Part shown: positions 26,139 through 30,866 of the stretch, piece by piece
Layout of the letters: each line of letters begins with the position of its first letter
Numbering within the stretch: the first letter of the stretch is position 1
DNA from: an uncultured Flavobacteriales bacterium
GTDB lineage: Bacteria; Bacteroidota; Bacteroidia; Flavobacteriales_G; Salibacteraceae
Direction of reading: 5' to 3'
Length of the DNA stretch: 47,404 bases
NCBI GenBank assembly: GCA_937899835.1
Contig: CALCCE010000087.1
Location: 1 to 47,404 of the forward strand
The notes under the pieces: generated by a model
The model's database searches: none
The model's input: only the letters and a program-made list of their open reading frames with translations
What the model was told of the DNA's origin: nothing
Position numbers and translations under genes: made by a program

Positions 26139-26175
26139 CCATCCGAAATTTTCGGAAATGTTCTTAATGTTACCT

Positions 26176-26249
26176 TCTCCCTTAGCTCAGTTGGTTAGAG
26201 CACCTGACTGTTAATCAGGGTGTCCTTGGTTCAAGTCCAAGAGGGAGAG
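26176..26249 (+). tRNA. tRNA-Asn (anticodon GTT)
   Basis: A complete cloverleaf of 74 nt. The acceptor stem is TCTCCCT/AGGGAGA with discriminator G. The D arm is GCTC...GAGC. The anticodon stem CCTGA/TCAGG encloses loop CTGTTAA with anticodon GTT, and the T arm CTTGG/CCAAG encloses TTCAAGT. CCA is not encoded. Its last 17 bases are nearly repeated at 30664. Confidence 0.97.
26233..26249 (+). repeat. Possible attL: tRNA 3' end repeated 4.4 kb downstream
   Basis: AAGTCCAAGAGGGAGAG here and AAGTCCAAGAGGGAAAG at 30664-30680 differ at one of 17 bases, with 14 identical in a row. Together they bracket an AT-rich segment of unrelated genes, as expected for integration into a tRNA 3' end. Confidence 0.45.
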
Positions 26250-26256
26250 CCCAATT

Positions 26257-26293
26257 AGACTTTTCACTTTCAGAAGTGGAAAGTCTTTTTTTT
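26257..26293 (+). terminator. tRNA terminator
   Basis: AGACTTTTCACTT (26257-26269) pairs with AAGTGGAAAGTCT (26274-26286), one G-U pair, followed by eight Ts. Confidence 0.85.
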
Positions 26294-26581
26294 GCCCCGT
26301 CGTTACTGGGTTTCCGAGGGTCGGGGGTGTTTCTAACTCCTGATTTTCTCCCCGATCAGAATAATTTCAAATCACTGATTTTTAAGACTTTAATTTTGTT
26401 AGGTTTCAATGACCTAATTGGACTTGAACCGCGAGGAGATTATCAGATTTCTTCAGTTTAGGTTCATCCTCAGTCTTCCAAGCTTAAAGCTGTGAATGAG
26501 ATTCCTCTCAATAAAACAAAGATTTCACAGTTCAGCCCCAACTTCGACGGACCCAACCTCCAATTCGGAGGACAGCTTTCC

Positions 26582-26757
26582 CCTTTCAATTCTTGCTTGG
26601 ATTGGTTAGATTTGAATTTCCCCCTCAGCCATTGGTGTTTAATTGACCGAATTAGCTCCAAAGTCAGGTGTTGGCTTGGTCTTTTGATTGAAGGAGCTTT
26701 TAGATAAAAACTTCAGCAAGCTATCCTAAAAACCTTGAGCAATGCTGTTTATCTAAT
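26582..26757 (+). repeat. Conserved upstream module, copy 1
   Basis: The 40-base block at 26582-26621 (ending in GGTTAGATTTGAATTTCC) matches 28600-28639 at 36 of 40 positions. The block ATGCTGTTTATCTAAT (26742-26757) matches the same place in copy 2 at 15 of 16. The module ends directly before the ATG at 26761. The other bases from 26294 show no gene. Confidence 0.6.
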
Positions 26758-26760
26758 TGT

Positions 26761-28545
26761 ATGAAACAAACTCAAAAAACTAATTTAAATATGACTCAAG
26801 AATGGTTTGAAATGAACGATTTGAGAAAGAAGAAGTTAGATAAATCCGTTTGGATACCTCTACGTTCTCAAAAATCCATTCGAAATCAAATACAATTTGG
26901 GGAAACTGGTTATCAAGAAGAGTTTTTGGGTCATGGTTCGATAATGGTCCCTTTTGATAAAAAAGAAATAGTACAAAAGTTAAGTTGGACTGATATTGGA
27001 TTAAGTAACTCCAAAGGGTTAAACTATGTTTATGGCGAATATTACCAGTCAGACATATACGAAAACAATGACTTAAAAGGGTTTCATTTGGTCATAGACC
27101 AAACCTTTGACAACAATTTTGATAATCATGAATGGCACTTACATCAGGATTTAGTTATCAATTTGGGGCTAAAAAGAGAAAGTGATATTTGGATATGCCC
27201 CAGACATGGATACGAGGTAGTCGCAAGGCTTGAAAGAAACAAAGACGACAACCCAATAGTTCTCGAGATAAGGAATCAATTTCTAAAAGATTATTTGAAA
27301 GCAAGAGAATGCGGTCTATTCATGACTTCCTTTTTCAGTAGAGATGAAATATTTGAAAATCGCTCAGTTCTTTCTTGGAATGAAGAATCGCAACAATCTG
27401 AGGATGGAAAAGATACTTGGGAGTGTAGAGTTTTAGAAATACATGAAGGAGGTTCCCATTTTTGGGGGAAAATAGCCGTTTCAAATGTTAGTAGAATTGA
27501 TGTTGATGAAAATGAAGACGTCCCGGACATGACCTCCTTTCCAACAGGTGACAATGTAAAGTCTGAATTCTACGAGAGAGGTTTTGAAGGAAAGAAGTTG
27601 TACAGAATTATTTCAGAACTTTGGAAATACGATTGGATAAACCCTGCCGATTCAAGCCCAGTAACATTAGGTCACAAAGAAAATATTGACATTTTTTATG
27701 TTGTTGACACCACAGGAAATAAGGAAAGCGGAAAGGAACTAATCAAAGGTGAAAAATGGCTTTGGTTTAGACCTGAGTTAGTTTCAGCATTATTATCTAA
27801 ACGTCGTAGTTTTTTGAATTGGTATACAAGAGATACAGGAAGTGTTTCATGTTCACCAGCCTGGGGAGTTCATTTTGGAGTAAATGCATTAGGTTTGATC
27901 ACTGTTTATGCGAAAGATATTGGCCAATTACCTTTATGGCAACAACAAATTTGGGCGAGTTTCAATGTCGCACCAGATGGGGGAATCTCTAAAGAACTTC
28001 ATGATTCACAAGTCAAGGCAAAACCAGCATCGACTTTAGCACCAGAAGCACTCATAGAGAAAGTTATCAAAGAAATAAACGTGGCTGCTAATACAAGCCT
28101 TCAAATCCAATTTTTCAGGGAGCATAGTTCTATCAGTGAAATTGTGACCTCAATTCACAGATTCAGAGCAATTGATATTAATGGGCTTTATTCGCTTTCA
28201 AAAGACTTGGCAAGAATAATTGTTGACGATATTGATACTGTTTCTATTCAGAAAATTATCGCACCACCCAAGAAAACGAAATGGGGCTCACTTAAAAGTA
28301 TTGAAAACTTGCTTGCATCAAAAATCACTGCGGAAGATGCTCATAACATAATGAGTCCATTTGTTGGGATTTATGAACTGAGGCATGGAGACGCTCATTT
28401 GCCAAGCAGTAAACTTGAAGAATCATTTAAGCTTATTCAGATAGACAGAAATCAGCCAACAGTCATACAAGGCTATCAAATGCTATTTGCATGCGTCAAC
28501 AATCTACATGTGATATTAAGCATACTTAAAGATTGGAAGATCTAA
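26761..28545 (+). CDS. Unknown 594-aa protein with C-terminal HEPN-like R-x4-H motif
   Basis: The gene is AT-rich compared with the chromosomal genes to its left. It has no signal peptide or membrane span, so it is probably cytoplasmic. The N-terminal two thirds (to about 405) are mixed alpha/beta with many Trp residues and end in a conserved-looking stretch LPLWQQQIWASFNVAPDGGISKELH. The last 180 residues are mainly helical and contain YELRHGDAH (R541, H546), which fits the R-x4-6-H signature of HEPN domains, many of which are RNases of defence and toxin systems. It stands alone after tRNA-Asn, preceded by the repeated upstream module. I do not recognise the full-length family; a defence role is a hypothesis. 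Confidence 0.75.
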   Translation: MKQTQKTNLNMTQEWFEMNDLRKKKLDKSVWIPLRSQKSIRNQIQFGETGYQEEFLGHGSIMVPFDKKEIVQKLSWTDIGLSNSKGLNYVYGEYYQSDIYENNDLKGFHLVIDQTFDNNFDNHEWHLHQDLVINLGLKRESDIWICPRHGYEVVARLERNKDDNPIVLEIRNQFLKDYLKARECGLFMTSFFSRDEIFENRSVLSWNEESQQSEDGKDTWECRVLEIHEGGSHFWGKIAVSNVSRIDVDENEDVPDMTSFPTGDNVKSEFYERGFEGKKLYRIISELWKYDWINPADSSPVTLGHKENIDIFYVVDTTGNKESGKELIKGEKWLWFRPELVSALLSKRRSFLNWYTRDTGSVSCSPAWGVHFGVNALGLITVYAKDIGQLPLWQQQIWASFNVAPDGGISKELHDSQVKAKPASTLAPEALIEKVIKEINVAANTSLQIQFFREHSSISEIVTSIHRFRAIDINGLYSLSKDLARIIVDDIDTVSIQKIIAPPKKTKWGSLKSIENLLASKITAEDAHNIMSPFVGIYELRHGDAHLPSSKLEESFKLIQIDRNQPTVIQGYQMLFACVNNLHVILSILKDWKI

Positions 28546-28599
28546 GCACTTCCTCATTGTAGTCATAATATCCTGCTCAAATCTGAGTGTAACCTTTCT

Positions 28600-28796
28600 C
28601 CTTTCAACTCTTGCTTGGATTAGTTAGATTTGAGTTCCCTCTTTCATATCATATTGTGTTTAACCTACCAAACTGGCACAGAAATCAATAGTTGTTTCTC
28701 TATCCTTGGATAGTTGGAACATTTCGATAACTACCTCATCATGGTTGGTTAACCCAAACACTTAGGGTTATGTTGTTTATCTAATAGTTGTGGTAC
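28600..28796 (+). repeat. Conserved upstream module, copy 2
   Basis: It starts with the 40-base block shared with copy 1 (28600-28639) and ends with a 46-base block (28747-28792) that matches 31720-31765 at 39 of 46 positions. Its last ten bases, GTTGTGGTAC (28787-28796), are repeated in inverted form just after the gene it precedes (29560-29569). Confidence 0.65.
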
Positions 28797-28814
28797 ATTA
28801 TTGAAAATCAGAAC

Positions 28815-29552
28815 ATGCGTTATTCAAAAGAAGAAATATTAAAAAAAATTAGAGAAATTGCTGAATTGAATAATGGGAAAATGATTGGAATTAAGAAATT
28901 CGAATCACTAACTGGTATAAAGGAAGGATTTTGGAAAGGAAGATATTGGATTAATTGGTCTGACGCTGTAAATGAAGCTGGTTTTAAATCAGCAAACTAT
29001 AAACAACCTTGGGACAAAAATACCATGCTGAAAAAATTAGCTGACTTAGTTCTAGAACTTGATCATTTTCCGCAAGTTGCCGAGTTAAAAATGAAAAGAT
29101 TTAAGGATAAGTCATTCCCAAATGCAAAATCTTATAGAGAAAGAATCGGAAATAAATTACCTATGGCTAAAAATCTTTATGATTGATGTATTGATAAACC
29201 TAAATACAAAAGAGTTTTATCAATATGTAAACCACTATATTTAGAAAATATTGAAAACAGTACGTATAAAATTGCTAAATCGAAAACTATAATCAAAACT
29301 GGATTCGTATATCTTATGAAATCAGGGAAAAACTATAAAATTGGAAAGACAAATTCGTTTAACAGAAGGCAATATGAAATCGGATTACAAATGCCTAAGA
29401 GTATTCAACCGATACATAGTATTGAAACGGACGATCCAAATGGTATAGAGCTTTATTGGCATAATAGATTTAAAGAAAAAAGGCTTAATGGAGAATGGTT
29501 TGAATTATCTAATGATGAAGTTAATATCTTTAAGAGAAGAAAATTCATGTAA
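28815..29552 (+). pseudogene. GIY-YIG (T5orf172-like) nuclease with HNH-repeat N-terminus, broken by one TGA
   Basis: One frame runs from the ATG at 28815 (MRYSKEEILKKIREIAELNNGK) to TAA at 29550-29552, 245 codons, interrupted only by TGA at 29184-29186. The N-terminal part has homing-endonuclease-associated repeats (FESLTGI...FWKGRYWINWSDAVNEAGF). After the TGA the frame continues without another stop into a complete T5orf172/GIY-YIG domain (GFVYLMKSGKNYKIGKTNSFNRRQYEIGLQ ... GIELYWHNRFKEKRLNGEWFELSNDEV ... FKRRKFM). The combined layout matches a known bacterial family of about 250-290 residues, so this is one gene split by a single nonsense codon rather than two genes. Readthrough cannot be excluded. 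Confidence 0.75.
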
Positions 29553-29559
29553 ATAAAAC

Positions 29560-29581
29560 GTACCACAACAACGTATAAAAT
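29560..29581 (+). repeat. 3' flanking motif with inverted GTACCACAAC
   Basis: GTACCACAAC (29560-29569) is the exact reverse complement of the end of upstream module copy 2, so the broken gene lies between inverted repeats. It runs into CAACAACGTATAAAAT (29566-29581), which matches 32292-32307, after the next broken gene, at 14 of 16 positions. Confidence 0.6.
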
Positions 29582-29739
29582 TTATGCTCAAATTTTAGTT
29601 AACTTTAAAAATTCAAAAAGACCATCACAAAAACATAGAAATTATTTGATTAGGCAATCGTGACAAATTTTTCATGAACACCTTTTTCTTATGTTCCTAA
29701 CCCTCTGTCAAACACCGAACTTTATCGTTTAAGAAAAGG

Positions 29740-29906
29740 CACAACTCCCTGAAAACCTGTACTATCTGGTTCACATACAGTCCAGCAGGGAGAGCGATGA
29801 AGCAGAACATAGTTCGCTTCATCGCCGTGCGGTGATCGGTACGATCTACTGCACAGCGAAATGAAATTGAAAGCCTCAGTGAAGTCATTCTTCTTGAGGC
29901 TTTTTT
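29740..29906 (+). ncRNA. Strongly structured candidate RNA ending in a terminator
   Basis: Four stems follow one another. Stem A is CTCCCTG/CAGGGAG (29745-29751, 29786-29792), enclosing CTGTA/TACAG (29757-29761, 29776-29780). Stem B is GCGATGAAGC/GCTTCATCGC (29794-29803, 29816-29825), ten perfect pairs. Stem C (29827-29854) has about twelve pairs with one bulge and a GTA loop. Stem D is AAAGCCTCA/TGAGGCTTT (29870-29878, 29895-29903), followed by a T run. ORFs overlapping it look like shadows. I do not recognise the class. Confidence 0.55.
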
Positions 29907-29961
29907 CATTTTATCCCTCCGGACCTTTCCCGGTATTGCCTATCTTCTTTCTTAAAAAATA

Positions 29962-30252
29962 CTGGGTCTCAACTACTGTTGCTACGTACTTTATTCTTTG
30001 AAAGACCACAAATTTTACATTGGCTATACTACCAACCTGGAACAGCGCATTGAAAACCACAATGCAGGTAAAACTACCTCCACCGCGCCACGAAGACCCT
30101 TGAAACTCATCTTTTGCGAATACTACCTGGTTAAAGCAGATGCGATGAGACGGGAGAAATACTTTAAAACTACTGCTGTGAAGAAGGGGTTGCGGTTGAT
30201 GTTGCGGGAAACTTTAGTAACGTTAGAGAAAAACTACTCTAAATTGGATTGA
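29962..30252 (+). CDS. Small GIY-YIG domain protein (UPF0213-like), start uncertain
   Basis: The frame contains the complete core: NYCCYVLYSLKDHKFYIGYT (the GIY and YIG strands), the conserved Arg of LEQRIENHNAG, and the C-terminal helix with REKYFKTTAVKKGLR. Members are about 80-95 residues and usually open with an ATG a few residues before YVLYS. Here there is no ATG between the upstream stop (29953-29955) and the YIG strand. CTG at 29962 is taken as the start; TTG at 29998 would delete the first strand of the catalytic fold. The gene may have a non-canonical start or have lost its start. The role of this family is unclear. Confidence 0.55.
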   Translation: MGLNYCCYVLYSLKDHKFYIGYTTNLEQRIENHNAGKTTSTAPRRPLKLIFCEYYLVKADAMRREKYFKTTAVKKGLRLMLRETLVTLEKNYSKLD

Positions 30253-30663
30253 AGCTGCGAAAATCAAGGAGGTAAAATTTAAAAATAGAGTAGGGTTTTA
30301 ACCGACAGACTCTCTGTCCATATGATTGAGAAGGTCGATTCGTGTAAATTATGATCTTAACTACACTAATAATGTGCCATTTGCATTCTTTGAGCACGCT
30401 ATTTTGTCCAAACCCTACAAGTGGTACGCACTGTTTCTAAGAGGCAGAGCACAAGACAGAAACGCGTCTCAAGAGAGGCTCACTTCTTTATAGAATAAAA
30501 ACTCCGTTGGTTAGGGTCCCGAACCGTCGAGATTCATCCGTGTTTTCCTGACTTATCTAGGGTAAAAGTTTAGTTGGAGGCTTTCTTATTTCGAACAAGC
30601 CGAAAAGGCCTGGAAGAGAAGTTTATGCTGATTGGATCAGCCAGTTGTCTGAGGAATTTCGGT

Positions 30664-30685: not shown

Positions 30686-30725
30686 AACCCCAAAAAGCCA
30701 GCTACATAGCTGGCTTTTTGGGGTT
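30686..30725. terminator. Perfect 18-bp hairpin next to the tRNA-end copy
   Basis: AACCCCAAAAAGCCAGCT (30686-30703) pairs perfectly with AGCTGGCTTTTTGGGGTT (30708-30725) across four bases. It starts only six bases after the tRNA-end copy and may be the original terminator of the tRNA gene before an insertion. Confidence 0.6.
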
Positions 30726-30866
30726 TTCAGACTTTTCGTTCGAGTTTATGTTGGATTGTGATTTACAATTCTTCAGTACGATAAATGGTTAAGAAAAGTT
30801 CATGGAGGCAAATCGATGAACAGATTGTTCATCGTTAAACATTAAGTTGTCTAAGCCTTGATAAAA

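Follow-up and report, generated by a model that had tools for sequence, protein, structure and literature searches.

The window, by which we mean the whole 47,404-nt stretch of DNA analysed here, carries an intact tRNA-Asn gene with its own terminator, and 3.5 kb downstream of it lies a structured stretch at 29740–29906 that is followed by a small GIY-YIG gene and by a second fragment of tRNA-Asn (Table 1). Four hairpins stand in a row within this stretch, here called stem A, hairpin B, hairpin C and the terminator. Its minimum free energy (MFE) of −71.0 kcal/mol lies far below that of 200 dinucleotide shuffles (−40.1 ± 4.1; z −7.5), none of which folded as well. When the hairpins were folded singly, B (−14.8, z −5.3), C (−16.1, z −4.6) and the terminator (−18.7, z −5.1) were each far beyond chance, and stem A (−16.3, z −2.1), whose hairpin spans 29745–29791, was the weakest of the four and only mildly beyond chance. 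The reverse strand also folds strongly (z −7.3), as palindromic DNA would be expected to. A preliminary description of this DNA had noted four strong stems here, the last a terminator, with ten perfect pairs in B and about twelve pairs in C, and the computed folds bear this out.

Table 1. Features around the structured stretch, in window positions
Feature	Position	Strand	Basis or remark
Intact tRNA-Asn (gtt)	26175..26250	+	ARAGORN, Rfam; genome's only close match to itself
Terminator of intact tRNA-Asn	26257..26291	+	13-bp stem + T8, z −5.2
3.4-kb insert: two modules, related leaders	26292..29742	+	between intact tRNA-Asn and remnant
Stem A, decayed tRNA-Asn copy as judged by alignment	29743..29795	+	alignment to tRNA-Asn, MAFFT
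Hairpin B: 10 bp + bulged A + 4 bp	29794..29825	+	fold; abuts tRNA-Asn in UBA6057, G732
Hairpin C: 12 bp, one bulge	29827..29854	+	fold; UBA6057 stem identical, loop alone differs
Intrinsic terminator ending TTTTTT	29869..29906	+	fold z −5.1, T run
GIY-YIG gene, tRNA-linked type	29959..30252	+	PF01541 E 1.7e-15; 85% identity to UBA6057 gene
Second tRNA-Asn fragment, nt 57–74, starting in T-loop	30664..30681	+	17/18 identical to window tRNA-Asn
Terminator-like hairpin behind second tRNA-Asn fragment	30688..30728	+	16-bp stem, −29.4 kcal/mol, z −7.3

The same description had seen no likeness to any known RNA and had named a covariance-model search as a check. We ran the stretch against the Rfam 15 covariance models, where no family reached its gathering score; a permissive scan gave chance-level matches only, the best at 20.7 bits against a cut-off of 55. 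The absence of likeness held for the stretch in that search, and failed for stem A, whose alignment identifies it as a decayed copy of tRNA-Asn. The whole stretch has no second copy in its own genome and no match longer than 22 nt in the plasmid collection. A DNA search of 100 relatives returned one true homologue, in UBA6057 (G003; DIYJ01000014.1), a Flavobacteriales bacterium of the same family and another genus, and the complete four-hairpin unit had no further occurrence in the window's genome or in these relatives. Matches in G010 and G022 covered the terminator only, in unrelated contexts, and were dropped.

By its sequence, stem A is of tRNA origin. Aligned to the tRNA-Asn of the window it scored 21.5, a value reached by none of 5000 shuffles (−11.4 ± 5.7) and one that exceeds the score at every one of the 94,396 other window positions tested; tRNA-Asn alone scored above 0, all other isotypes giving 0 or less. 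Both acceptor arms and the T-arm are kept, and the D-arm and the 3′ anticodon/variable part are lost. The loss of the D-arm and of part of the anticodon arm leaves the cloverleaf incomplete, and no tRNA is called at stem A. Five extra bases, CATAC, sit in the T-loop at 57/58, a placement that MAFFT gave independently, and it is at this same T-loop site that the window's second tRNA-Asn fragment begins. Other tRNA matches to the intact tRNA-Asn in its own genome reach at most 82% identity. Two short stretches 3′ of the GIY-YIG gene also resemble tRNA-Asn, 30436–30450 (nt 62–76, 87%) and 30502–30527 (nt 12–37, 73%), and may be further decayed fragments or chance.

The locus in UBA6057 consists of an intact tRNA-Asn followed by B, C, a terminator and the GIY-YIG gene, and its tRNA-Asn runs into the hairpin with no gap (...GGAGGAGC|GATGAAGC...). 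The terminator after the hairpins differs from that of the window, and the 3.4-kb insert is absent between tRNA-Asn and hairpin B. Taken together, the alignment of stem A, the second fragment and the order in UBA6057 argue that what stands here is a tRNA-Asn in decay, followed by the 3′ trailer it once had. The window and UBA6057 agree throughout the stems of B and C and differ there only in loops and junctions. Beside them, the two GIY-YIG genes were compared over 90 codons, of which 43 differ synonymously and 14 by replacement; dS is saturated, so the unchanged stems point either to constraint on the hairpins or to later replacement of that piece alone. We found the exact core of B in three of 395 genomes of the class (0 for a reversed-pattern control), at the same tRNA-Asn junction in all three. 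B stands directly behind tRNA-Asn in three genera and two families, the second family being represented by G732, where the GIY-YIG gene is absent. Hairpin C is known from two sequences, whose stems show no changes.

The window's GIY-YIG gene adjoins the tRNA-Asn remnants and keeps the active-site residues, both the invariant Y5, Y16 and R26 and the near-invariant G18 and E62. The closest solved relatives of the domain are the UPF0213 proteins BH0048 (1zg2, E 4e-15) and EF2693 (1ywl, E 4e-13), followed by SLX1 (E 3e-10), a repair nuclease that has two domains and acts on branched DNA; the tRNA linkage set out below was assessed for the Bacteroidota genes. A phage collection gave distant matches only to the protein, at ≤39%. 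Where the UBA6057 gene starts with ATG the window gene has ATA, and with the ATG lost the local element may be inactive or dead; what the window shows is best taken for a fossil of the element process set out below.

Bacteroidota commonly carry small GIY-YIG genes, which are usually annotated by domain name alone. Linkage with GIY-YIG genes was a further check named in the preliminary description, and relatives of the window gene proved to be systematically tied to tRNA genes and their fragments. We searched 35 genomes of the family with PF01541 and divided the matches into a small class (<170 aa) and a long class (UvrC and proteins of about 460 aa); setting aside four repeats among the 72 small-class loci fetched left 68 distinct ones. 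An intact tRNA lay beside the small gene at 36 of the 68 loci, mostly 20–190 nt away and on the same strand in all; an adjoining tRNA was found for 0/26 long GIY-YIG genes and for 1/20 control stretches taken 30 kb away. One supported clade of the tree, with 21 small genes, is without any tRNA, and all tRNA-linked genes fall outside that clade. In 23 of 34 cases nearest neighbours have the tRNA isotype in common, where 3.8 were expected and 5000 permutations gave at most 13. A profile of the tRNA-linked type found members in 142 of 247 genomes of the phylum. Of the 29 best loci (window excluded), 25 have a tRNA within 600 nt, again on the same strand in all. The link between GIY-YIG genes and tRNAs is general and strand-specific, and it is not a chance neighbourhood.

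The distribution of the tRNA-linked genes is patchy, and they often form tandem arrays. Four GIY-YIG units accompany a tRNA-Asp, five a tRNA-Leu, five a tRNA-Met, three a tRNA-Ser and three a tRNA-Arg; one array of eight units has no intact tRNA in view. Among relatives from the phylum, arrays of three to eight genes (L214, L215, L216, L217 and L219) have a period of ~320–450 bp, and most lie beside one same-strand intact tRNA.

Partial copies of the same tRNA flank many of the GIY-YIG genes, amounting to 136 fragments in 55 loci, and two layouts are seen repeatedly. In one, a 5′ tRNA fragment with a palindrome precedes the GIY-YIG gene and an intact tRNA follows it; in the other, an intact tRNA and its terminator precede the gene, and a 3′ tRNA fragment, a palindrome and a terminator follow. 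Fragment boundaries cluster at canonical positions 21 (9 loci), 26 (6), 37 (5), 48 (10), 56 (4) and 58 (9), all in or beside tRNA loops. Uniform placement gave a maximum of ~4 and never more than 8 in 20,000 simulations, and the peaks at 21, 48 and 58 exceed any of them, although the observed loci are not all independent. Common descent, or orthology, accounts for part of the sharing of isotypes and of breakpoints.

These features recall SegB of phages T4 and T6, a free-standing GIY-YIG homing endonuclease that lies beside phage tRNA genes, cuts inside them at the motif RAWTSGAAC, and is required in active form for tandem amplification of segB together with tRNA (PMC13096335). In our own reading, the T-loop consensus is matched by GTTCSAWTY, the reverse complement of this motif. 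Like segB, the genes here are free-standing and adjoin tRNAs, with breakpoints in the T-loop and tandem arrays; unlike it, they are chromosomal and phylum-wide, are smaller and single-domain, form lineages that follow the isotype, are accompanied by palindrome-bearing pseudo-tRNAs, and are known here from sequence alone. Given the SegB precedent, we propose that the genes in Bacteroidota encode endonucleases for tRNA genes and would spread by cutting and repair.

For the stretch itself, we favour, with a probability of about 0.6, the reading that a SegB-like GIY-YIG element colonised a tRNA-Asn locus whose 3′ part, since displaced, is this stretch, and that B, C and the terminator are the old trailer. 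The ancestral order would have been tRNA-Asn, B, C, terminator and GIY-YIG gene, as UBA6057 keeps it; in the window, the original tRNA-Asn would have decayed into stem A, and a further tRNA-Asn, intact and with a terminator of its own, would have come to lie upstream. We infer that the enzyme would cut within the loops of tRNA genes, most of all in the T-loop, and that repair of the break would copy the element beside the tRNA and restore one intact tRNA, with partial tRNAs, hairpin inserts and tandem units as leftovers. If still transcribed, B and C would trail the tRNA transcript as hairpins; at the DNA level they could form cruciforms, which the enzyme may meet or avoid. An alternative to sequence recognition, suggested by the closeness of the domain to UPF0213 and then to the branched-DNA nuclease SLX1, is that the enzyme recognises cruciforms extruded by the tRNA or by the palindrome. 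The presence of B without a GIY-YIG gene in G732 means that B can occur apart from the enzyme and weighs against such an element, as do the lost ATG of the window gene, the share of common descent in isotypes and breakpoints, and the build of the enzyme, whose one small domain lacks the DNA-binding part found in classical homing endonucleases. The suggestion that the stretch is the RNA partner of a mobile element survives in so far as it adjoins a GIY-YIG gene whose relatives are tied to tRNA genes and fragments; what falls away is a single dedicated RNA, since a tRNA-Asn remnant and a trailer appear to make up the stretch.

For the phylum as a whole, we see an even chance that Bacteroidota harbour a large and apparently undescribed family of GIY-YIG selfish elements specific to tRNA isotypes, which would cut tRNA loops, have one tRNA rebuilt, leave hairpin-tagged pseudo-tRNAs and arrays behind, and use hairpins like B and C as protection or recognition signals. 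If this is true, a selfish family that spans the phylum and acts on essential genes has escaped notice, recurrent partial tRNAs and tRNA duplications in Bacteroidota are explained, the SegB principle of phages extends to chromosomes, and natural isotype-matched pairs of enzyme and target are at hand for direct cleavage tests. Our search of the open-access literature returned phage, mitochondrial and general GIY-YIG papers only, and none on a chromosomal tRNA link of bacterial GIY-YIG genes; the newness of this link is provisional because the search covers the open-access subset only.

Several other explanations have to be set beside the SegB-like element. B and C may be a functional cis element of the tRNA-Asn transcript, serving 3′ processing, stability or termination control, with the GIY-YIG gene a mere neighbour and the window copy a relic after tRNA duplication. 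The conserved stems of B and C and the placement of B behind tRNA-Asn in three genera, once without GIY-YIG, are consistent with this, but a terminator only follows the tRNA at the other tRNA-Asn loci examined in the family, and a mere neighbour does not fit the general and strand-specific link; we consider a cis element unlikely, though it is compatible with the SegB-like reading and both can be true. B could also be a REP-like dispersed palindrome that landed behind tRNA-Asn, with C and the rest incidental. Like REP and other palindromic repeats, B is a bulged palindrome. MAG G100 (JANYBY01; L040, L059–L061) carries, dispersed in five places, a variant with the core of B, the bulged palindrome GAAGCAGARC-NNN-GYTCGCTTC, and G649 has a diverged copy. 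The joint alignment of B, in which homology of the G100 copies is assumed, holds 11 cells changed on both sides of a pair against 3.8 ± 1.3 when shuffled (0/500). The outer stem of the G100 palindromes is variable and mostly compensated, as in a REP-like family. Unlike a REP, B is present as a single copy in both the window genome and UBA6057, which rules out an amplified REP in the former; within the class it always stands at the same tRNA-Asn junction, and C is conserved together with it, all of which makes a landed palindrome quite improbable. Even harder to sustain is the regulatory RNA of the preliminary description, that is, a structured small RNA that is independent, has a promoter of its own and acts in trans. 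Its strong fold and terminator would suit such an RNA, but there is no Rfam match, stem A looks like tRNA debris, B and C are a tRNA trailer in UBA6057, and the four-hairpin unit was found nowhere else in the genomes searched; we found no support for a trans-acting RNA in what appears to be a tRNA-Asn remnant and its former 3′ trailer.

The 3.4-kb insert raises a further alternative, a tRNA-targeting integrase island in which stem A would be the displaced att half and the insert the island. As at the integration sites of tRNA-gene islands, an intact tRNA bounds the insert on one side and a tRNA fragment on the other. Unlike at such sites, a Pfam scan of the three insert ORFs (26761–29552) found no tyrosine or serine integrase, the breaks fall in several tRNA loops, the remnant has internal deletions between its two preserved acceptor arms and is not a clean 3′ identity block, and relatives show the same pattern with the GIY-YIG gene alone between tRNA copies, in units of ~320–450 bp; an island of this kind is barely credible. 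The SegB-like element in turn leaves the origin of the insert unexplained, which weighs against it. A 594-aa protein encoded in the insert (26761–28545) belongs to no Pfam, NCBIfam or PADLOC family, and a defence-gene library search gave sub-threshold matches only. The gene at 28788–29552, which combines HNH_repeat with MUG113/T5orf172 (GIY-YIG), is split by an in-frame TGA at 29184–29186. Each of the two modules is preceded by a leader (26560–26765 and 28594–28788), and the two leaders are 69% identical and look like a gene-cassette leader. Elsewhere in the genome, another contig carries a third copy of the leader, which is partial (84% over 63 nt).
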